From IMG/VR virus record IMGVR_UViG_3300035145_000557, positions 1 to 22,377 of that record: 22,377 nucleotides of DNA. One strand, given 5' to 3'. The translations under genes were made by a program, and so were the position numbers. Source of the stretch: a virus. The notes below the pieces were generated by a model that ran no database searches, was not told the DNA's origin, and was given only the letters and a program-made list of their open reading frames with translations. Positions 6,430 to 20,776 of the stretch are shown here, piece by piece (position 1 is the stretch's first letter; the number at the start of each line of letters is the position of its first letter).

Positions 6430-6460
6430 AAGAGAGGTTTTTTAATCTCTCTTTTTTTTT
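6430..6460 (+). terminator. intrinsic terminator closing cassette 2
   Basis: AAGAGAG (6430-6436) pairs perfectly with CTCTCTT (6447-6453) around a 10-base loop, and is followed by a run of T up to 6460. It ends the transcription unit that starts at the promoter near 4708. Confidence 0.85.
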
Positions 6461-7042: not shown

Positions 7043-7064
7043 TCATAACATATATATTATATAT

Positions 7065-7130
7065 ATAATACATAGTGTATATAATACATGGTGTAATATA
7101 ATACATAGTGTATTATATACATCGTGTAAT
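7065..7130 (+). repeat. four tandem 16-17 bp iterons with palindromic core
   Basis: Four head-to-tail units occupy 7065-7080, 7081-7097, 7098-7114 and 7115-7130. Each contains TACATNGTGTA (cores at 7069, 7085, 7102 and 7118), in which TACA and TGTA form an inverted repeat around three bases. Core spacing is 16, 17 and 16 bases, about 1.5 helical turns. Only the middle base varies (A, G, A, C). This is the pattern of an operator array or replication iterons, placed about 100 bases upstream of the late tail operon. Confidence 0.8.
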
Positions 7131-7161
7131 ACATATATGTTACATACATAAATAATACATA

Positions 7162-7228: not shown

Positions 7229-7939
7229 ATGGCAAGAAAAACTATAGAACTTGAAGTGCCAACTAGCCTTGCAGACATCAAGCTGTGGCAATATCAAAAG
7301 TATATGAAAATACTTAACGCACACGAAGATCAAGAACAAACAGAAGAATTAACAAACTTTTTAAATATGAAGCTTGTTGAGATATTTTGCAACATATCAT
7401 TAAAAGATGTTTCTGAAATACCTTATACTGAATACGGAAAGATATTAGATATATTAAATCAAGCGTTTAGCGAAAAACCTAAATTGATAAATAGGTTTAT
7501 GTTATTAGATGTAGATATGGGGTTTGTGCCAAAACTAGATGATATAAGTTTAGGTGAATATGTAGATATAGAAAATAACATTTCTGATTGGCAAAAAATA
7601 CATAAAGCAATGGCTGTATTATACAGACCAGTTAATTTTAAGTCAAAAGATAAATATGGGATTTCGCCATACAAGGTAAATGAAGAAATACAAGAGTTGA
7701 TGAAAGAGATGCCGTTAGATGTAGTAATGAGTTCGATGCTTTTTTTTTACAATTTAGGAAAGGACTTACTGAAAGCTATACCGAAATATTTGGAACAGAA
7801 CCTGAAGAAAGAGGATATGCAGACGCTAGACAAGCATTTGCAAAAAAGTGGGGGTGGTATCAATCAATTTATGCACTCGCTAAGGGAGATGTCAGACATT
7901 TCAATACAGTTACCGAGCTTCCACTCTATGAGTGTTTAA
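7229..7939 (+). CDS. tail assembly chaperone, unshifted product (gpG-like)
   Basis: The 236-residue zero-frame product begins MARKTIELEVPTSLADIKLWQYQKYMKIL, a pattern I associate with tail assembly chaperones of Bacteroidota siphophages. These proteins coat the tape measure protein while the tail tube forms. The body (residues 1-173) is helical and lies before a run of nine T (7740-7748). After it the zero frame continues for 63 residues (FYNLGKDLLKAIPKYLEQNL...) and stops at 7937-7939. A second frame over the same bases is also coding, so the gene makes two products like lambda G and GT. It is the first gene of the late operon; a leader of AATTTATTATATGG precedes it with no Shine-Dalgarno sequence. 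Confidence 0.8.
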   Translation: MARKTIELEVPTSLADIKLWQYQKYMKILNAHEDQEQTEELTNFLNMKLVEIFCNISLKDVSEIPYTEYGKILDILNQAFSEKPKLINRFMLLDVDMGFVPKLDDISLGEYVDIENNISDWQKIHKAMAVLYRPVNFKSKDKYGISPYKVNEEIQELMKEMPLDVVMSSMLFFYNLGKDLLKAIPKYLEQNLKKEDMQTLDKHLQKSGGGINQFMHSLREMSDISIQLPSFHSMSV

Positions 7940-8010
7940 ATTATTTGGCATTTGAAAAAGAAAAAATAGAAATAGAACAAAAAGAACTAAAGAAAGCATA
8001 TAAAAGATGA
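7229..8010 (+). CDS. tail assembly chaperone, -1 frameshift product (gpGT-like)
   Basis: If ribosomes slip back one base at T-TTT-TTT (7741-7747), translation continues as LQFRKGLTESYTEIFGTEPE and on to a TGA at 8008-8010. This gives a fusion of about 260 residues (173 zero-frame plus 87). The added part contains KKWGWYQSIYALAKGDVRHF, then LPLYECLNYLAFEKEKIEIE and a basic end, KELKKAYKR, which reads as a genuine T-like domain. The -1 frame is open from 7684 but has no ATG, GTG or TTG start before this domain, so frameshifting is the only evident way to express it. Its stop overlaps the next gene start (ATGA at 8007-8010), the normal coupling in this operon. It probably recruits tube subunits to the tape measure complex. 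Confidence 0.85.
7741..7747 (+). other. slippery site for -1 frameshift
   Basis: The zero-frame codons are CTT TTT TTT TAC. The heptamer T-TTT-TTT has the X-XXY-YYZ form that lets both tRNAs re-pair after slipping back one base, inside a run of nine T (7740-7748). A homopolymer this long could also cause slippage by RNA polymerase. I see no clear stimulatory stem-loop or Shine-Dalgarno element nearby. Confidence 0.8.
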
Positions 8011-8498
8011 CAAGTTTTTACGACATACTAGACAAACTAAAAACATACTTACAAGGAAATACAAGTGTGAATACAGTTACATTTGGAGATATATTTGAAG
8101 TAGATTTATCTAAGCAAACAATATTTCCTTTATCACATATAGTTGTGAATAGTTGCACATTCCAAGATCATGTTGTTGTATTTAATTTACAAATAATATG
8201 TATGGATATTGTAAATGAAACAAAAGAAGATAGAAAAGACTTAGACAACTACTTTCACGATATAAATAACAAACAAGATGTGCTAAACACACAATTTGTT
8301 GTAATTAATGGCTTACAGTCTGCGTTAAGAAGAGGACAATTGTTTAGTCAATTATATCAAATAGATGCAGATTATACTGCTAATATGTTTGAAGACAGAT
8401 TTGAAAACTTACTTGCTGGTTGGACACTTGATATAAGTATAACTGTACCAAATAATGAAATATCAGATATTAACGCTAACGGACAATCTCCTTGCTAA
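8007..8498 (+). CDS. tail completion/terminator-like protein (putative), 163 aa
   Basis: The N-terminus (MTSFYDILDKLKTYLQGNTSVNTVTFGDI) followed by beta strands (TIFPLSHIVVNSCTFQDHVVVFNLQIICMDI) and an acidic Asp/Asn-rich turn is like the small alpha/beta proteins that cap the tail tube or join it to the head. Position supports this: it lies between the chaperone and the gp10-like protein, with overlaps to both. The exact role (terminator versus minor tail protein) is inferred from size and place, since the sequence is not diagnostic. Confidence 0.6.
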   Translation: MTSFYDILDKLKTYLQGNTSVNTVTFGDIFEVDLSKQTIFPLSHIVVNSCTFQDHVVVFNLQIICMDIVNETKEDRKDLDNYFHDINNKQDVLNTQFVVINGLQSALRRGQLFSQLYQIDADYTANMFEDRFENLLAGWTLDISITVPNNEISDINANGQSPC

Positions 8499-12982: not shown

Positions 12983-13129
12983 ATGATAAAAAATATACTT
13001 GATTTACTTAATGCAGATAACTGGTATGGTATCAGCGAAAACATAGAGATTGCTAAAGGCAAATATTCTGGTGTGAAAGATTTTAAACAATTGAAAGAAC
13101 AACTAAAAAGATTAAAACATGGCAACTAA
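12983..13129 (+). CDS. small hypothetical protein between tip and tape measure, 48 aa
   Basis: The 48-residue product (MIKNILDLLNADNWYGISEN...) has an aromatic N-terminus and a basic C-terminal helix (DFKQLKEQLKRLKHGN). It overlaps the tape measure start by 11 bases. An AGGAGG at 12962-12967 lies too far upstream (15 bases from the ATG) to be its clear ribosome binding site. It is probably real because it fills the gap exactly; function unknown. Confidence 0.6.
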   Translation: MIKNILDLLNADNWYGISENIEIAKGKYSGVKDFKQLKEQLKRLKHGN

Positions 13130-15233
13130 AAAAGTATTAATACAAGTCATTTTAAATGACAAAGCAAGTCAAAAAGCTAAAAAAACAGGTGATGCTATAG
13201 AAGGCTTATCTAGTAAAGTTTTAATACTTAACAAAGAGCAAAGGCAACAGATCATAAATGACGAAAAATCTGCTATACAAAAGAAAAATTTAATAAATGA
13301 GCTGAAGGCACAAGCAGCAGCAGAAATGAATGTTGTTGCAGCACAAAAACAAGGTAGAGCACAATCTGGATTAAACAACGCAATTTTATTAGAAACTGGT
13401 CGTTTGGCATCAGATGCTTCTTATGGTTTTACAGCAATGGCGAACAACTTAGGTCAAATAGTTACCTTGTTCAGTAGTTTTGTTGAAACCAATGATGGAG
13501 TTATTGCATCTTTTAAAGAGTTAGGAAAATCATTATGGGGTATGGGTGGTATATTAATTGGTGTTCAATTATTAATATCATTCGGTCCTAAAATAATAGA
13601 CTTCTTTACTGGAATGGATGAAGCAGCTAAAAAAGCTGCAAAATCTAATGAAGAGTTATCTAGTGCTTTAAGAGAGCTTGACTCTAATATGGTTATAGCA
13701 CAAGAGTACGTTAGTCTAATAGAAGATGTTAATACAACAGAACAAGAGAGAAAAAACATAATAAATGAATTGATAAAGATTATTCCTGATTTAAAAAAAG
13801 AAGATTTTGAGTATGGTGAAAATTTAGATATTGTAAGAGAAAAAATAAATGAATATGCTATAGCACAAGCATCAAGAATAAAAATAGATAAATTGGTTCA
13901 AGACAATGTTGAAATATTGTCTAAAAGAAGAAGGGTTGATATTATAAAATCTATAGAAGATGATAAAGAAAGATTAGAAGCTATTAAAGATTTTGCCAAA
14001 GAAGAAGATACAACTCAAAAAATACAAACAGATTTAACGGGAAGAAATCAGAAATTAGTAGAAAAATCTAATGAAGATTATATTTCATCTTTTGAAAAAA
14101 GAAGTAAATCTGTTGTAGAAGAATCTGATAAAATATTAGATAAAATTAGAGAACTTACAGATACATCATTCTTAGGAGGAAAAGAAGATGAAACAAAAGG
14201 TCTTAAAAACAAATATGACAAAGAGTTTGATGAGCTTAATAAGTTTTTAGCAAAACAAGAAGAATTAGAGCAAAACTATTTTGATAGTTTATTATCTCAG
14301 GAACAAGTAGAGGTAAATCAAGTTAGAGATAAATATTTTAAGTTTATTAAGCTTGCTGAGGATTTTAATTTTAGTACTGTGTTTTTAGAGAAAGCTAGAG
14401 ATGCAGAAATTGCTGGTGTAAGAAAAAAGTTTAGAGACGAAGAGCTAGCAGAAGAGGAAAAAAAACAAAGAGCATTACAAAAAATAAGAGACAAATATCA
14501 ATTAGGCAAGTTAAAAATAGAAGAGGACATTGCAGAAGACCCAGAAACTTTAGATGAATTAGAGATACTTGAACAAAAACAACTTGCTAGAATAGATAAA
14601 GAAGAAGAGCTTGCTATATTGTCTTTAGATAAATTAAAGCTTACAACAGAAGAAAAAGAAAAAGCAGTAACAGATATTGAAGCTTATTATGGTGCAGTAA
14701 GATTAAAAAATGCAGAAGATAATCAAAAAGCTAAAGAAAAAATAGATGAGTTAGAAACTAAATCAAAACTACAAGCTTTAGATAATGTAGGAAAAGGATT
14801 AATGGCTGCTTCACAAATTGCTGGTCAATCTACTGGAGTAGGTAAAGCATTGGCTGTTGCAGGAACAATGATTTCTACATATTCATCAGCACAAAAAGCT
14901 TATGAGAGTCAAATGCAATTAACTCCTGATTCACCAATAAGAGCAAAAATTGCATATGCTGCTGCTGTAGTACAAGGTTTAGCAAACGTAAAATCAATTA
15001 TGTCTGTAAAAACGCCTGCAATGAAAGAAACATCAGCAGTTACAGGAGGAACAGGTCCAATTAATGTTGCAGCACCTGACTTTAATGTAGTAGGGCAAGG
15101 AGGAGTAAATCAATTAGGTCAAGTTATAGGTGCTAGATTTGGTCAGCCAATAAGAGCTTATGTAGTAAGTGGAGATATTTCTAGTGCACAAGAATTAGAA
15201 AGAAGTATAACAGCAGGAGCAAGATTAGATTAA
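13119..15233 (+). CDS. tape measure protein
   Basis: The 704-residue protein has the tape-measure layout: a basic, Ala/Gln-rich N-terminus (QAAAEMNVVAAQKQGRAQSG around 65-84), a hydrophobic segment at about 139-158 (LWGMGGILIGVQLLISFG), long charged helices from about 165 to 560 rich in Glu and Lys (such as EEEKKQRALQKIRDKYQ), and an Ala/Gly-rich region near 565-640 (MAASQIAGQSTGVGKALAVA). Such proteins set tail length and are ejected with DNA. Using the usual 0.15 nm per residue, 704 residues suggest a tail of about 105 nm, an inference. The start at 13119 lies inside the small upstream gene. It is followed 18 bases later by the protease gene. Confidence 0.9.
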   Translation: MATKKVLIQVILNDKASQKAKKTGDAIEGLSSKVLILNKEQRQQIINDEKSAIQKKNLINELKAQAAAEMNVVAAQKQGRAQSGLNNAILLETGRLASDASYGFTAMANNLGQIVTLFSSFVETNDGVIASFKELGKSLWGMGGILIGVQLLISFGPKIIDFFTGMDEAAKKAAKSNEELSSALRELDSNMVIAQEYVSLIEDVNTTEQERKNIINELIKIIPDLKKEDFEYGENLDIVREKINEYAIAQASRIKIDKLVQDNVEILSKRRRVDIIKSIEDDKERLEAIKDFAKEEDTTQKIQTDLTGRNQKLVEKSNEDYISSFEKRSKSVVEESDKILDKIRELTDTSFLGGKEDETKGLKNKYDKEFDELNKFLAKQEELEQNYFDSLLSQEQVEVNQVRDKYFKFIKLAEDFNFSTVFLEKARDAEIAGVRKKFRDEELAEEEKKQRALQKIRDKYQLGKLKIEEDIAEDPETLDELEILEQKQLARIDKEEELAILSLDKLKLTTEEKEKAVTDIEAYYGAVRLKNAEDNQKAKEKIDELETKSKLQALDNVGKGLMAASQIAGQSTGVGKALAVAGTMISTYSSAQKAYESQMQLTPDSPIRAKIAYAAAVVQGLANVKSIMSVKTPAMKETSAVTGGTGPINVAAPDFNVVGQGGVNQLGQVIGARFGQPIRAYVVSGDISSAQELERSITAGARLD

Positions 15234-15251
15234 TTATATAAATACGTTAAT

Positions 15252-16259
15252 ATGAAAATAGTAGAATTATTAATAGACGAAGAACAATTATTATCTGGCA
15301 TAGAAGCCATATCTATTGTAGATCAACCTGCAATAGAAGAGAACTTTATCGCTTTATCAAAACAGCACGAAATAAAACTTGCACAAGTAGATGAAGAGAA
15401 AAGAATACTTATGGGTGCTGCATTAGTTCCAGACAAGAATATATACAGAAGAGATGGTGAAGAAGAATATTATATATATTTCTCAAAGGATACTGTAAGA
15501 CAAGCATCACAATTATTCTTAATGAGGGGTAATCAAAACAAATCTACATTAGAGCATCAAGCTGAATTACATGGATTATCTGTAGTTGAATCTTGGATTA
15601 TAGAAGATGAGGTGCATGATAAATCAAGAAAGTATGATATGGATTTACCTGTAGGTACTTGGATGGTATCAATGAAAGTAAATAATGATGATGTTTGGAA
15701 AAATTATGTAAAAACAGGATTGGTAAAAGGATTTAGTATTGAAGGATATTTTAAAGATAAATTAGAAATGTCTGCTATAAATGATGTAGAAGACGAAGAT
15801 GAAGCTAGAGAAATACTATTAGAAATAGCTAATTCAATATTAGACAATAAGTATGAATTAAAAACTTATGGTGATTACGGAAGTGGTGTTAGAAATAATG
15901 CCAAAAGAGGTATTGAACTAAATAAAAAAGTAAACAATAAATGTGCAACAAGCGTGGGGAAAATAAGAGCTCAGCAATTGTCAAGAGGTGAGAAATTGAG
16001 TGTGTCTACGATTAAGAGAATGTATTCATATTTAAGTCGAGCAGAAACTTATTATGATGCCAATGATACTAAAGCGTGTGGAACTATATCATATTTATTA
16101 TGGGGTGGTAAAGCAGGCTTAAACTGGTCAAGAGGTAAACTAAGAGAATTAGGAGAACTAGACTTGAACGATGATGATCCATGTCAAGCAGGATATGAGC
16201 AAATCGGTATGAAAACTAAAAACGGAAGATTAGTTCCTAATTGTGTACCTAAAAAATAA
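15252..16259 (+). CDS. XkdF-like prohead protease with C-terminal Cys domain
   Basis: The 335-residue protein has an XkdF-like putative serine protease domain at residues 1-175. Recognisable elements are EAISIVDQPAIEENF (18-32), STLEHQAELHGLSVVESWII (98-117, with candidate His102 and Ser114) and VWKNYVKTGLVKGFSIEGYF (148-167). These are common in prohead proteases that clear the scaffold, although which residues are catalytic is not settled here. Residues about 205-300 form a second domain (KCATSVGKIRAQQLSRGEKL..., with ACGTISYLLWGGKAGLNWS) found attached to this family in several phages. The last 25 residues (DPCQAGYEQIGMKTKNGR, VPNCVPKK) carry two more cysteines. The scaffold and capsid genes follow. 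Confidence 0.82.
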   Translation: MKIVELLIDEEQLLSGIEAISIVDQPAIEENFIALSKQHEIKLAQVDEEKRILMGAALVPDKNIYRRDGEEEYYIYFSKDTVRQASQLFLMRGNQNKSTLEHQAELHGLSVVESWIIEDEVHDKSRKYDMDLPVGTWMVSMKVNNDDVWKNYVKTGLVKGFSIEGYFKDKLEMSAINDVEDEDEAREILLEIANSILDNKYELKTYGDYGSGVRNNAKRGIELNKKVNNKCATSVGKIRAQQLSRGEKLSVSTIKRMYSYLSRAETYYDANDTKACGTISYLLWGGKAGLNWSRGKLRELGELDLNDDDPCQAGYEQIGMKTKNGRLVPNCVPKK

Positions 16260-16261
16260 TT

Positions 16262-16399
16262 ATGAAAAAGACAAATGAAACATTAGGCAGGAATGTGCCA
16301 AAGAACGGAAGAAGAGGTTGTCTGTGTAAAGATGGAAAAACATATTCCAGAAAGTGTTGTGATGGCACTTTAAGATCACAGGGAATAGGCAAAATCTAA
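16262..16399 (+). CDS. 45-aa Cys-rich protein of the head module
   Basis: The ORF is short but distinctive. Residues 18-35 read RGCLCKDGKTYSRKCCDG, with C-x-C and C-C pairs, followed by LRSQGIGKI. I recognise this pattern as recurring in small proteins next to capsid genes of Bacteroidota phages. It starts 2 bases after the protease stop. The four cysteines could bind a metal or form disulfides, but its function is not known. Confidence 0.72.
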   Translation: MKKTNETLGRNVPKNGRRGCLCKDGKTYSRKCCDGTLRSQGIGKI

Positions 16400-16429
16400 C
16401 AACCTTTTTTTATTTAATTACTTTGTTAG
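16396..16429. repeat. inverted repeat before the scaffold gene
   Basis: CTAACAA (16396-16402) and TTGTTAG (16423-16429) are perfect inverted arms around 20 bases that include a T-rich tract. The T-tract is in the loop, so it is not a standard terminator. The gap to the scaffold start (16457) is AT-rich. A role as a weak promoter or operator for the scaffold-capsid pair is possible. Confidence 0.35.
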
Positions 16430-16456
16430 TAAAATTAATTTTATAATACTTAATTT

Positions 16457-16990
16457 ATGGAAAAACAAAAAGCTACATCAATTCTAAACGACATCATGGA
16501 GAAATTATCTCTTATTAAAAAAGATGACGTTAAAGAAGTTGAGCTTAAAGAAGAAGAAGTTCAGCTTTCTGAACAGCTTACTGAAGAAGAAGAAATGTCT
16601 CAAGAACTTACTGAACTTGCTTGCCAAGAAGAAGTAGTAGCTGAAGAACTTTCATCTGATGAGGTAGAAGCTGAAGAACTACAAGAAGAAGCTCCTGTAG
16701 AGGAAGTTTCTGAAGAGATTGAAATGAACGAAGACAAGTACGTTTCAAGAGAAGAATTTGATATGAAAATCAAATCAATTATGGATAAGATTGACGAAAT
16801 GAGCTTAGGTTATCAAGAAGAAAAAGTTTCTATGAGCAAACAAATAGAAGAGCTTTCTAAAGAGCCTGCTGCAGAGCCAATCAATCAAGGTACTGAAGAA
16901 CAACCTAGAAAAAAAGTTCTTTACTCGCAAAACAGACAATTCAGTACAAAAGATAGAGTATTGAATCAAATTTTTAACATTAATAGATAA
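16457..16990 (+). CDS. capsid scaffolding protein (putative)
   Basis: The 177-residue protein is strongly acidic: about residues 25-95 consist mostly of Glu in patterns such as EEEVQLSEQLTEEEEM and EEVVAEELSSDEVEAEELQE. It is followed by a basic helix (REEFDMKIKSIMDKIDEM, about 98-115) and a short basic C-terminus (RKKVLYSQNRQFSTKDR). Location between protease and major capsid protein and an acidic coiled-coil-like sequence are typical of scaffolds. Its start context is AATACTTAATTTATGG. Confidence 0.75.
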   Translation: MEKQKATSILNDIMEKLSLIKKDDVKEVELKEEEVQLSEQLTEEEEMSQELTELACQEEVVAEELSSDEVEAEELQEEAPVEEVSEEIEMNEDKYVSREEFDMKIKSIMDKIDEMSLGYQEEKVSMSKQIEELSKEPAAEPINQGTEEQPRKKVLYSQNRQFSTKDRVLNQIFNINR

Positions 16991-17004
16991 ATAAATAGAC
17001 AAAA

Positions 17005-17952
17005 ATGGCTACATCTACATCAATTACTACTACTTATGCAGGGGAATTCGCTGGTGATTATATTTCGGCTGCATTATTATCTGGTGATACTTTAAATAAA
17101 GGTAACATCGAGATCAAACCAAACGTAAAGTTCAAAGAAGTAATCAAAAAAGTTGCAACTGATTCTAACGTAATTAAGGATGCTACTTGTGATTTTTCTG
17201 ATACTGCTACTGTAACTTTAACAGAAAGAATCCTTCAACCAGAAGAGTTTCAAGTAAACCTTGAGCTTTGTAAAAAGGACTTTAGAAGCGACTGGGAAGC
17301 TATCCAAATGGGATACTCAGCGTATGACAACTTACCTCCAAAATTCTCTGATTTCTTAATCGGACACGTTGCAGGTTTAGTTGCAGAAAAAACAGAACAA
17401 AATATCTGGGGTGGTGTGAACGCTAACGCAGGTGAGTTTGACGGATTTACAGTTTTAATGGCTGCTGATTCTGACGTAAATGACGCTGCTAATGGTTCTG
17501 AAACTTCATTCACTTCATCTAACATTGTTACTTTATTAAGCAATGTTGTAGACTCAATTCCTAACGCAATTTATGGAAAAGAAGATTTAAAAATCTATGT
17601 TCCACCTGCAGCTTGGCAAGCATATATCAGACACTTAGGAGGATATGGTGCTAATGGACTAGGTGCTGCTGGTTACAAAGCTGAAGGAAACCAATGGTGG
17701 AATAACAATGCTTCATTATCATTTGAAGGAATCGAAGTTGTTTATACTTCAGGTATGCCTTCAGATCATATCGTTGCAGGACAAAAATCTAACTTATACT
17801 TTGGTACTGGTCTTTTAGCTGACCACAATGAAGTAAAAGTATTAGATATGGCTGATCTTGATGGTTCTCAAAATGTGAGAGTCGTTATGAGATTTACATC
17901 TGGTATTCAGTATGGAATCGGTTCAGAATTAGTATTATTAACTTTAGCTTAA
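17005..17952 (+). CDS. major capsid protein, HK97 fold
   Basis: This 315-residue protein has the features of a small HK97-fold shell protein. It has an N-terminal arm (about 1-65), a long-helix region around LCKKDFRSDWEAIQMGYSAY (87-106), FLIGHVAGLVAEKTEQNIWG (117-136), and a C-terminal beta part ending RFTSGIQYGIGSELVLLTLA (296-315). Position after the scaffold and before a strong terminator supports the call. Its codons use more C-ending and GCT/GAC-type choices (for example GACGTAAATGACGCTGCT) than the neighbouring genes, as expected for the most highly expressed virion gene. The ATG at 17005 follows an A-rich leader (ATAGACAAAAATGG) with no Shine-Dalgarno sequence. Confidence 0.9.
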   Translation: MATSTSITTTYAGEFAGDYISAALLSGDTLNKGNIEIKPNVKFKEVIKKVATDSNVIKDATCDFSDTATVTLTERILQPEEFQVNLELCKKDFRSDWEAIQMGYSAYDNLPPKFSDFLIGHVAGLVAEKTEQNIWGGVNANAGEFDGFTVLMAADSDVNDAANGSETSFTSSNIVTLLSNVVDSIPNAIYGKEDLKIYVPPAAWQAYIRHLGGYGANGLGAAGYKAEGNQWWNNNASLSFEGIEVVYTSGMPSDHIVAGQKSNLYFGTGLLADHNEVKVLDMADLDGSQNVRVVMRFTSGIQYGIGSELVLLTLA

Positions 17953-17974
17953 TAACTAAATAATTGTATAACAC

Positions 17975-18011
17975 AAAAGGGGTAGGTGGTATAGACTACC
18001 TGCCCTTTTTT
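17975..18011 (+). terminator. intrinsic terminator after the capsid gene
   Basis: The AAAAGGGGTAGGTGGT arm (17975-17990) pairs with 17995-18010 through 16 base pairs, including three G-U pairs, around the loop ATAG, and a T-rich 3' side follows. This is one of the strongest hairpins of the window and separates the capsid gene from the next unit. Confidence 0.9.
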
Positions 18012-18028
18012 ATTAAAAAATAAATATT

Positions 18029-18589
18029 ATGGCTTGTGATTTAACATTAGGAAGAAAAGAACCTTGTAAAGACGTAGTAGGCGGTATTAAAGCTGTTTAC
18101 TTTGTAGATTTTGGTGATTTTTCATCTATTTCTTATGTAACAGATACTGATGTAATTGACACATTAGGATCAACGCTTACTTGTAGACAATATGATGTAA
18201 AAGGTAACTCATCATTTGAGCAAAACATTACTTCGTCAAGAGAAAACGGTACTACATTCTTCGAGCAAACACTAAATTTAACATTACATAAATTAACTAA
18301 GGAAGATAATAAAGAATTAAAATTAATGTCTTATGGAAGACCTCATATTATTGTTGAGGACTATAACCTTAATTTATTTGTAATGGGATTAGAGCATGGT
18401 GCTGAAGTATCTGGAGGTACAATAGTAACTGGTGCTGCTATGGGTGATTTAAGTGGGTATACTTTAACATTTACTGGAATGGAAAAAGTACCTGCAAATT
18501 TTATTGAAAGAACTACTGATACTGAATCTGCTTCTACACAGCTTACAAACGCTGGATTTAGCTCGATTACAGCAGGAAGTAATGAATAA
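18029..18589 (+). CDS. major tail tube protein (putative), 186 aa
   Basis: The protein begins MACDLTLGRKEPCKDVVGGI and contains SSRENGTTFFEQTLNLTLHK (about 71-90), SYGRPHIIVEDYNLNLFVMG (about 104-123) and a conserved-looking GLEHGAEVSGGTIVTGAAMG (123-142) before GDLSGYTLTFTGMEKVPANF. I recognise the pattern from small structural proteins of flavobacterial siphophages, and the size and beta-rich character fit a tail tube subunit. Its own strong terminators on both sides suggest high, separately tuned expression, which also fits a tube protein. I would not exclude a head decoration protein. Confidence 0.65.
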   Translation: MACDLTLGRKEPCKDVVGGIKAVYFVDFGDFSSISYVTDTDVIDTLGSTLTCRQYDVKGNSSFEQNITSSRENGTTFFEQTLNLTLHKLTKEDNKELKLMSYGRPHIIVEDYNLNLFVMGLEHGAEVSGGTIVTGAAMGDLSGYTLTFTGMEKVPANFIERTTDTESASTQLTNAGFSSITAGSNE

Positions 18590-18611
18590 TAATTAGATAT
18601 ACTTTGTAGAT

Positions 18612-18643
18612 AAAAGAGGGATGCTTTATGTATCCCTTTTTTT
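18612..18643 (+). terminator. intrinsic terminator after the tube gene
   Basis: GGGATGC (18618-18624) pairs with GTATCCC (18630-18636), extended by AAAAGA against the T-run to about 13 base pairs with a five-base loop TTTAT, followed by T7 (18637-18643). It limits read-through into the downstream portal operon. Confidence 0.88.
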
Positions 18644-18678
18644 ATGCAAACAATTTTGTATAACTTTATTATTTATAT

Positions 18679-19014
18679 ATGACAATATTAACAACATCTA
18701 CAGATGCTCAAACTTTTAAGGTAATTCCTAGAAGCACACCGAGCTCTGTTACATTTGAACTTACTGATAAATCTAAACGTACTACAAGTACAGTTTCTGT
18801 TACAGTAAGTAATTCAAACGGATATATGTCTATTACTGGCACATTTGGATTAGTTGCCAATAGATTTTATTCGTATATAGTAAAAGATGGTGATACAGTA
18901 ATATATAGAGGAAGTATATTTTGTACTGACCAAACGGATTATAACGTATTTGACGTACACTCTGGAGATTATACAACAGAAGACTCATACGATAATGACT
19001 TTGTAATAATATGA
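18679..19014 (+). CDS. small beta-rich structural protein (hypothetical), 111 aa
   Basis: The 111-residue product is Thr/Ser-rich and predicted mostly beta (SSVTFELTDKSKRTTSTVSV, then YSYIVKDGDTVIYRGSIFCT), like a small virion decoration or connector domain. The ATG at 18679 is in an AT-rich leader, and its stop overlaps the portal start (ATGA at 19011-19014), so it is translationally coupled to the portal gene. A partial match to the 13-bp motif overlaps its start (TTATATATGACAA, 18673-18685, reverse strand), which I regard as weak. No family is firmly recognised. Confidence 0.65.
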   Translation: MTILTTSTDAQTFKVIPRSTPSSVTFELTDKSKRTTSTVSVTVSNSNGYMSITGTFGLVANRFYSYIVKDGDTVIYRGSIFCTDQTDYNVFDVHSGDYTTEDSYDNDFVII

Positions 19015-20273
19015 CAAAAAAAAGCAATAGAGCTAGTAGAAGAAAATTAACAGCTCAACAACCGAAACTAGAAGTGCAACAAGGTAAAATCCATGTTGTA
19101 AATCTTTCCTCCTATACAAGACCTGAGATTAATGAAAGATATAATCAAGAATGGATTGAATACGGAGATGACAATAATTATTTCCAATATCTAATAGATA
19201 GATATAACGGAAGCCCTACAAACAATGCTGCGATCAACGGAATAGCAGAAATGGTTTATGGTAAAGGATTAGATGCTGTAGACAGTAAAGATAAACCAAA
19301 AGAGTATGAAGAACTGAAAGAGTTATTCAAAAAAGATTGCATGAAGAAGACTTGCTATGACTATAAAATGATGGGTCAAGCTTCGCTTCAAATAATCTAT
19401 TCTAAGGACCGATCTAAGATTGTGCAAGTAGAACATATACCTGTAGAGAAGTTAAGGGCAGAGAAGGCAGATAAAAAGGGCGTAATCAACGCTTATTACT
19501 ATGCTAACGACTGGTCTGAAATAAAAGGTAGTAAAGTGCCAAAAAGAATACCTGCATTTGGTACAAGTAACTCAGGATTAGAAATACTTTATATTAAACC
19601 TTATAGAGCAGGATTTTATTACTATTCTCCAGTAGATTATCAAGGAGGTTTACAATATGCAGAACTTGAAGAAGAGATAGCAAATTATCATATCAATAAT
19701 ATTCAGAATGGTCTTGCTCCAAGTATGCTTATTAACTTTAATAACGGAGTACCTACGGAGGAACAAAGAGAACTTATTGAAAGAAGTATACAAGAAAAGT
19801 TTAGTGGATCGTCTAATGCTGGTAGATTTATATTGGCATTTAATGATAGCAAAGACCTTGCAGCTTCTATAGAACCTGTCATACTTTCTGATGCTCATGA
19901 ACAATATAAATTTTTATCTGATGAGTCAATGAGAAAAGTAATGGTATCACACAGAATTGTATCTCCTATGTTAGTAGGCATAAAGGATACTACAGGTCTT
20001 GGAAATAATGCAGAAGAGTTACAAACTGCTTCAATACTTATGGATAATACTGTGATTAGACCAATGCAAGTAACAATACTTGATGAGTTAGAAAAGATAT
20101 TAGATTTTAATGGTATTGATTTAGATATATACTTTAAAACCCTACAACCTCTTGAATTTACTGATTTAACTAATGCAATTACAGATGCTGAAGTAGAAAA
20201 AGAAACAGGTATAAAAAAAGAGGATCAAGAACCAGAACAAGAAGTTGAACAACCAGAAAATATTGAAGAATAA
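19011..20273 (+). CDS. portal protein
   Basis: The 420-residue protein has features of a siphophage portal. It has an N-terminal region with QEWIEYGDDNNYFQYLIDRY (about 45-64) and NNAAINGIAEMVYGKGLDAV (71-90), then the clip/stem-like middle (MMGQASLQIIYSKDRSKIVQ, VEHIPVEKLRAEKADKKGVI), and the crown-side helices (SDESMRKVMVSHRIVSPMLV, GIKDTTGLGNNAEEL). It is the dodecameric channel through which the terminase pumps DNA. It is unusually located after the capsid and tube genes, about 17 kb from terL. Its acidic C-terminus (EDQEPEQEVEQPENIEE) overlaps the next gene by one base. Confidence 0.88.
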   Translation: MTKKSNRASRRKLTAQQPKLEVQQGKIHVVNLSSYTRPEINERYNQEWIEYGDDNNYFQYLIDRYNGSPTNNAAINGIAEMVYGKGLDAVDSKDKPKEYEELKELFKKDCMKKTCYDYKMMGQASLQIIYSKDRSKIVQVEHIPVEKLRAEKADKKGVINAYYYANDWSEIKGSKVPKRIPAFGTSNSGLEILYIKPYRAGFYYYSPVDYQGGLQYAELEEEIANYHINNIQNGLAPSMLINFNNGVPTEEQRELIERSIQEKFSGSSNAGRFILAFNDSKDLAASIEPVILSDAHEQYKFLSDESMRKVMVSHRIVSPMLVGIKDTTGLGNNAEELQTASILMDNTVIRPMQVTILDELEKILDFNGIDLDIYFKTLQPLEFTDLTNAITDAEVEKETGIKKEDQEPEQEVEQPENIEE

Positions 20274-20776
20274 TGGCAACAGCACTATTTATAAAAAGGT
20301 CAGACATTGTTAAGAATACAGCATTGAGTGCTAATGTGGATACTGATAAATTTATTCAGTTCATTCATTTGGCACAAGAGATTCATGTGCAAAATTATTT
20401 AGGTACAGATTTATATGATAAAATAAGTGCCGATATAATTGCAGGTACATTATCTGGCGATTATTTAAGTTTAGTAAATGATTACATACAACCTATGTTA
20501 ATTCATTTTGCTATGATTGAATACTTGCCATTTGCTGCGTATTCTATATCAAACGGAGGTGTATTTAAGCACAACTCAGAAAACAGCTCACAAGCAAGTA
20601 AAGAAGAGATTGATTATTTGATACAAAAAGAAAGAGATTATGCTGAGTATTATGCACAAAGGTTTATTGATTATATGAGCTTTCACGCATCAACAAAATT
20701 TAGCGAATATTATAGTAACAACAATGAAGATATATATCCTGATAAAGACACAGGATTTCATGGATGGCAACTGTAA
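20273..20776 (+). CDS. head-tail connector/adaptor (DUF6712-like, putative)
   Basis: The 167-residue helical protein begins MATALFIKRSDIVKNTALSA, with DTDKFIQFIHLAQEIHVQNY (about 23-42), LGTDLYDKI, and QPMLIHFAMIEYLPFAAYSI (72-91). This resembles DUF6712 proteins of Bacteroidota phages, in the head completion/adaptor class that binds the portal's lower face. It overlaps the portal gene by a shared TAATG and the small following gene by 13 bases. The order portal-connector is the usual one. Confidence 0.78.
   Translation: MATALFIKRSDIVKNTALSANVDTDKFIQFIHLAQEIHVQNYLGTDLYDKISADIIAGTLSGDYLSLVNDYIQPMLIHFAMIEYLPFAAYSISNGGVFKHNSENSSQASKEEIDYLIQKERDYAEYYAQRFIDYMSFHASTKFSEYYSNNNEDIYPDKDTGFHGWQL

Follow-up and report, generated by a model that had tools for sequence, protein, structure and literature searches.

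A large group of Bacteroidota phages and prophages keeps a run of nine or ten T's where two reading frames of a tail-cluster gene meet. We favour, with modest confidence, the reading that this gene yields a G/GT-type pair of proteins by programmed slippage at the run, mainly by RNA polymerase, the pair presumably serving as tail assembly chaperones. Comparison of the homologous sequences shows that both frames are kept, that the run holds nine or ten T's in every register, and that most of the -1 open reading frames have no independent start; the slip itself, its place in transcription, and the chaperone role of the products are what we infer. Frameshifting in G/GT pairs is already known. What is new is the length-conserved T9 across a large Bacteroidota phage group, the long dual-coding overlap, and the missing annotation; in the openly accessible literature that we searched, we found no account of a tail assembly chaperone made by transcriptional slippage.

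The stretch analysed here (the window) comprises all 22,377 nucleotides of IMG/VR record IMGVR_UViG_3300035145_000557. This 22.4-kb virus record also encodes a portal, a probable capsid protein and protease, and tail genes, and the features that matter for the argument are as follows.

1081-2295, + strand: terminase large subunit (Terminase_3 match, 3.5e-37).
7229-7939, + strand: zero-frame gene including its stop, G-like product of 236 aa; matches phrog_32199 (function unknown) with E 1.4e-22 and is kept in all homologues.
7740-7748, + strand: T9, the candidate slip site, with T_TTT_TTT (7741-7747) in the zero-frame register.
7747-8010, + strand: T-like second domain, read in the -1 frame, of 87 codons and a stop; fusion to zero-frame residues 1-173 is its predicted sole route of expression.
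7748-7936, + strand: dual-coding stretch, zero-frame residues 174-236 over the -1 domain; stop-making codon choices are absent from the overlap.
7755-7757, + strand: TAG that transcripts one U short would meet, with a short product predicted from the sequence.
8007-8498, + strand: next gene, a conserved neighbour (phrog_30964 match, E 3.3e-15), whose start overlaps the -1 stop.
13119-15233, + strand: probable tape-measure protein of 704 aa, from its length and composition and a weak phrog_30292 match.

The local features on which the original prediction was built can be read directly from the sequence. The zero-frame codons across the run are ATG CTT TTT TTT TAC, which puts T-TTT-TTT in register within the nine T's at 7740-7748, as had been claimed. 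The -1 frame is indeed open from 7684 to 8010 (stop 8008-8010), and ATG, GTG, and TTG are absent before its conserved part, in agreement with the proposal that it is startless ahead of its coding-like portion; the overlap of its stop with the next start as ATGA is found at 8007-8010. The claim that the same bases also code in the zero frame up to 7939 likewise holds, the 236-aa frame being open throughout and stop-making codons being avoided in the overlap. When the synonymous codons of one frame are resampled, the other frame of the window stays open in <1% of cases. With the slip point at 7747, the predicted fusion has 173 + 87 = 260 residues, its post-slip -1 sequence (87 aa) beginning LQFRKGLTESYTEIFGTEPEERGYADARQAFAKKWGWYQSIYALAKGDVRHF; WGWYQSIYALAK is an example peptide of the -1 part.

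In the model that we favour, standard decoding would give the 236-aa G-like product, RNA polymerase would add one U at the T9 in some transcripts, and ribosomes on these U-added transcripts would read the -1 domain in frame to give a 260-aa GT-like fusion. The first 173 residues would be common to both products, and the fusion would in addition carry the KWGWY...FEKxK domain. By analogy with lambda, the common part may bind the tape measure, and recruitment of the tail-tube protein may fall to the -1 domain. As a separate observation, a conserved TTTAG after the run places a +1-frame stop three codons on, at 7755-7757, where a U-deleted transcript would end in a 175-residue product; TTTAG is dictated by both coding frames, so its conservation does not demonstrate selection on the +1 stop.

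Homologous loci were collected by scans with each frame and then with alignments, which gave several hundred, or 311 distinct loci once identical copies had been removed. Aligning both frames with homologues, the check suggested at the outset for conserved slippery runs, gave a clear answer: 310 of the 311 encode the second domain in the -1 frame, and the junction run is T9 in 280 and T10 in 31. The run of nine or ten T's is kept in ~345 related Bacteroidota phages and prophages, and the farthest members checked have a zero-frame identity to the window of ~34-40%. Prophages carrying the homologous locus include those of Flagellimonas onchidii and a Winogradskyella MAG, and the isolated Nonlabens phages P12024L and P12024S have T9 at the homologous gene pair. 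A distant match in a Bacteroidia genome (E 3.8e-10) led to 30 prophage loci of one other Bacteroidia family, T9 being present in 29; isolated relatives of two more distant Bacteroidia prophages were not found in the phage collection. Flavobacterium phage 6H came up as a weak BFVD match; runs of at least nine T's are absent from its candidate gene. In the relatives, the terminase large subunit gene lies directly upstream of the chaperone gene.

Past the slip point the zero frame continues for a median of 190 nt (range 49-271), whereas known tail-chaperone frameshifts have means of 26 and 36 nt from slip to stop in two sets (PMC10274946). Within this overlap, the -1 frame has 1789 Leu, Val, or Ile codons followed by A or G, none of which creates a zero-frame stop; beyond the zero-frame stop, 712 of 908 such codons would create one. 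The avoidance of stops implies that selection holds both frames open and hence that both are translated. Among the 321 Leu codons of the window's remaining genes CTC is found twice, but the first clade uses it 126 times at such stop-prone positions in the overlap. Zero-frame tail identity, 0.67 against 0.41 expected from the -1 protein, was set aside, since the excess is inflated by shared ancestry, and we rely on stop avoidance instead.

The slip site had been proposed to be a homopolymer and not a lambda-type heptamer, which agrees with a run that is never shorter than nine in the 311 loci. Sorted by the first and fourth codons of the junction, these loci fall into the classes NTT,Tvx (275), NTT,TTx (22), TTT,Tvx (8), TTT,Vxx (4), and NVT,TTx (2), and the register classes that would yield T7 or T8 are absent among them. 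Loci without a T after the core all have TTT before it, and wherever the first codon has a base other than T in second position, TT follows the core. Additional NVT,TTx cases are L449 and the 29 T9 prophage loci of the other Bacteroidia family, which read GCT, GGT, AGT, or AAT followed by TTT TTT TTR in genes whose GC content is 30-50% and in which Leu is otherwise often encoded by CTG. Because of common ancestry these cases do not all count as independent, though compensation is seen in several lineages. Across the whole collection, a pattern search for T8 with the conserved context downstream returned 41 sites, none in the chaperone family, and no T7 or T8 homologue appeared in four further IMG/VR profile or protein scans and two DNA-pattern scans. 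Because the run is kept at nine or more across NTT TTT TTT T, TTT TTT TTT C, and NVT TTT TTT TT, what is conserved is run length and not the heptamer alone.

In the other genes of these contigs, runs of at least nine T's are avoided about tenfold, with 2 seen in 738 kb of other ORFs against 19.8 expected from synonymous shuffling; T8 occurs there 10 times against 31 expected. The 243 chaperone ORFs contain 244 runs of at least nine. T7 is depressed to the same degree in the slippery register (27 seen, 53.9 expected) and in the other registers (24 seen, 49.5 expected), so avoidance follows length and not frame, which is what slippage by polymerase or in replication would predict.

These patterns bear on the chief alternative, a programmed -1 ribosomal frameshift in which paired tRNA-Phe would slip on U_UUU_UUU as in other phage tail chaperones, which we regard as possible if somewhat doubtful. 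A ribosomal -1 slip and the insertion of one U yield the same fusion, so that sequence cannot fully separate the two mechanisms. T_TTT_TTT, an in-register heptamer of the X_XXY_YYZ form, is present in the correct register at every site examined, the shift is in the -1 direction, and the lambda G/GT site, with a product ratio of 30:1, is described as ribosomal, lambda-like ratios needing low efficiency only (PMC5009743). Bacterial transcriptional slippage at such runs has been measured at 15-55% (PMC4256274), far above the lambda ratio, which by this comparison would count against a transcriptional slip. Any T9, however, supplies T_TTT_TTT whatever its register, and ribosomal slippage fits poorly with a length of nine or ten that is held across three registers, losses on one side being offset by gains on the other, and with the finding that T_TTT_TTT in other genes is avoided no more than out-of-register T7. 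The stimulators that are common at ribosomal frameshift sites, though not always required, are likewise not in evidence: 60 representatives gave no RNA-structure signal upstream or downstream (mean z -0.3 to 0.2 for pseudoknot-free structures), and an upstream Shine-Dalgarno stimulator is unlikely because Bacteroidia ribosomes do not recognise such sequences (PMC9976891). Were the ribosome responsible, the extra T's would be residues wanted by both frames, or a longer run would aid the ribosome; two-frame amino-acid constraint does explain part of the T run.

Slippage by RNA polymerase is suited to a run of A or T of at least about nine whose length is kept in any register, as observed here, and it is at A/T runs of nine that many bacterial genomes, a large share of them, come to show selection against slippage (PMC1088944). 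Bacterial examples of transcriptional slippage (Thermus dnaX, Shigella mxiE and spa genes, and Citrobacter and Yersinia tssM) likewise have a run of about nine bases within a gene, give two products, and do without a Shine-Dalgarno sequence or RNA structure (PMC1088944, PMC4256274); in the present case a large phage family keeps the run, the second frame is long, and the putative slippage would take place in Bacteroidota. In potyvirus P3N-PIPO, too, an overlapping-frame domain is joined to a shared N-terminal part when the polymerase slips at a conserved A-rich site (PMC4552492, PMC4761962), although an RNA virus polymerase, an A-run, and unrelated proteins make this an analogy only. Judged from the sequence patterns, programmed slippage at the T9 seems somewhat more likely to be the work of RNA polymerase than of the ribosome.

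It is very improbable that the run is a replication-slippage (phase-variation) switch, in which genomes would be mixtures of T9 and T10 and some would encode the fusion directly. Two length variants are of the kind expected, locus L301, which has T9 where L307 has T10, and locus L485, which has T10 beside a T9 copy, but the frame differs in only these 2 of ~345 loci, so rarely that nearly no particle would carry the second form. Within single genomes, moreover, both frames are open and conserved, and assembly error could account for both variants. As to the variants themselves, L301 and L307 are near-identical contigs, and L301 is the sole locus of the 311 outside the -1 frame; L485 and L483 are prophage copies, ~87% identical, in one Bacteroidia genome, and in L485 the T10 places the second domain in frame zero as a direct fusion, with the G-tail frame open as well. 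These off-by-one runs may be real or may be assembly errors; if L485 is real, its short product could be obtained only through base-losing slippage.

We give even less credence to the -1 ORF being a separate gene with its own start, the T run being incidental, as the annotation of P12024L gp40/gp41 would have it. GenBank does list the P12024L and P12024S pairs as two adjacent hypothetical proteins, and an ATG or GTG occurs somewhere in the open -1 stretch at 27 of 310 loci; but at 283 of the 310 neither codon precedes the WGW motif, conservation of the -1 protein starts at the slip point itself, and runs of at least nine T's are universal at the chaperone locus and avoided elsewhere. Homopolymers are prone to sequencing error, but an erroneous T count, named at the outset as one thing that could undo the prediction, is excluded, as is a decayed gene, by the recurrence of the identical run in hundreds of independent assemblies, in cultured-host genomes, and in two isolated phages.

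A tail-assembly-chaperone role is suggested by analogy, from the two-product layout and the position in the tail cluster. In Pfam, NCBIfam, PHROGs, and the PDB, no known tail assembly chaperone was clearly matched; three members match phrog_166 'tail protein' weakly (E 0.0012-0.08), and in BFVD there are weak matches named tail assembly chaperone (E 0.65 and 3.2) along with unnamed viral structures. Predicted folds of the zero-frame product (236 aa, pLDDT 78.5) and the -1 domain (87 aa, pLDDT 73.2) had no Foldseek match in the PDB, and a second look at the zero-frame model with VIA returned low-Z helical matches only.

Like lambda G/GT, the locus would give two products with a shared N-terminal part, has a startless -1 extension, and lies in the tail cluster upstream of the (here probable) tape-measure gene (PMC5009743). 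The fusion layout, with the -1 frame kept in 310 of 311 loci and mostly startless, and the slippery site conserved in 311 of 311 as T9 or T10, are those of a lambda-type pair. It differs in its T9 run where lambda has a mixed heptamer, in gene order, and in that no sequence or PDB fold match was detected; four genes (8007, 8492, 9082, and 10233) separate the chaperone gene from the probable tape measure (13119), where a place directly upstream is usual if not strictly defining. Of the siphophage G/GT chaperone scheme in the original prediction, a programmed switch at the T run into the -1 frame and a fusion of ~260 residues thus appear sound, while profile and fold searches lent the chaperone identity weak support or none, and the gene is not beside the tape measure. 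Given the weak similarity and the separation from the tape measure, we describe the pair as working like G/GT and stop short of classing it with the lambda-type pairs by descent. The Nonlabens P12024L and P12024S pairs (gp40-gp41 and gp38-gp39) are homologous and have the same T9, but were deposited as unrelated hypothetical proteins and overlap by only ~75 nt.

The chances seem to us about even that a large group of Bacteroidota siphophages and prophages relies on slippage of RNA polymerase at a T run of constant size to set the ratio of its two tail-assembly proteins, the second frame overlapping heavily with the first. If so, the textbook ribosomal frameshift would gain a transcriptional counterpart, a non-ribosomal answer to the G/GT problem perhaps tied to hosts without usable Shine-Dalgarno stimulators, in a phage group with hundreds of contigs and numerous prophages. 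phrog_32199 and phrog_38404, now unlinked families of unknown function, would receive a joint role; a long dual-coding region would have been conserved over wide distances; and ribosome and polymerase slippage could be compared in nature at one site. Automatic annotation overlooks the fusion, as in P12024L and P12024S.

Three further observations concern the window itself. The head genes (protease, capsid, portal, and DUF6712) lie at 15252-20776, after the tail genes, an order inverted relative to lambda. Another T9, at 6452-6460, is intergenic, lying between ORFs and outside any recognised gene. Just 5' of the zero-frame gene, positions 7049-7150 are AT-rich with repeated ATACAT/GTGTA-like motifs, for which a regulatory role is possible.
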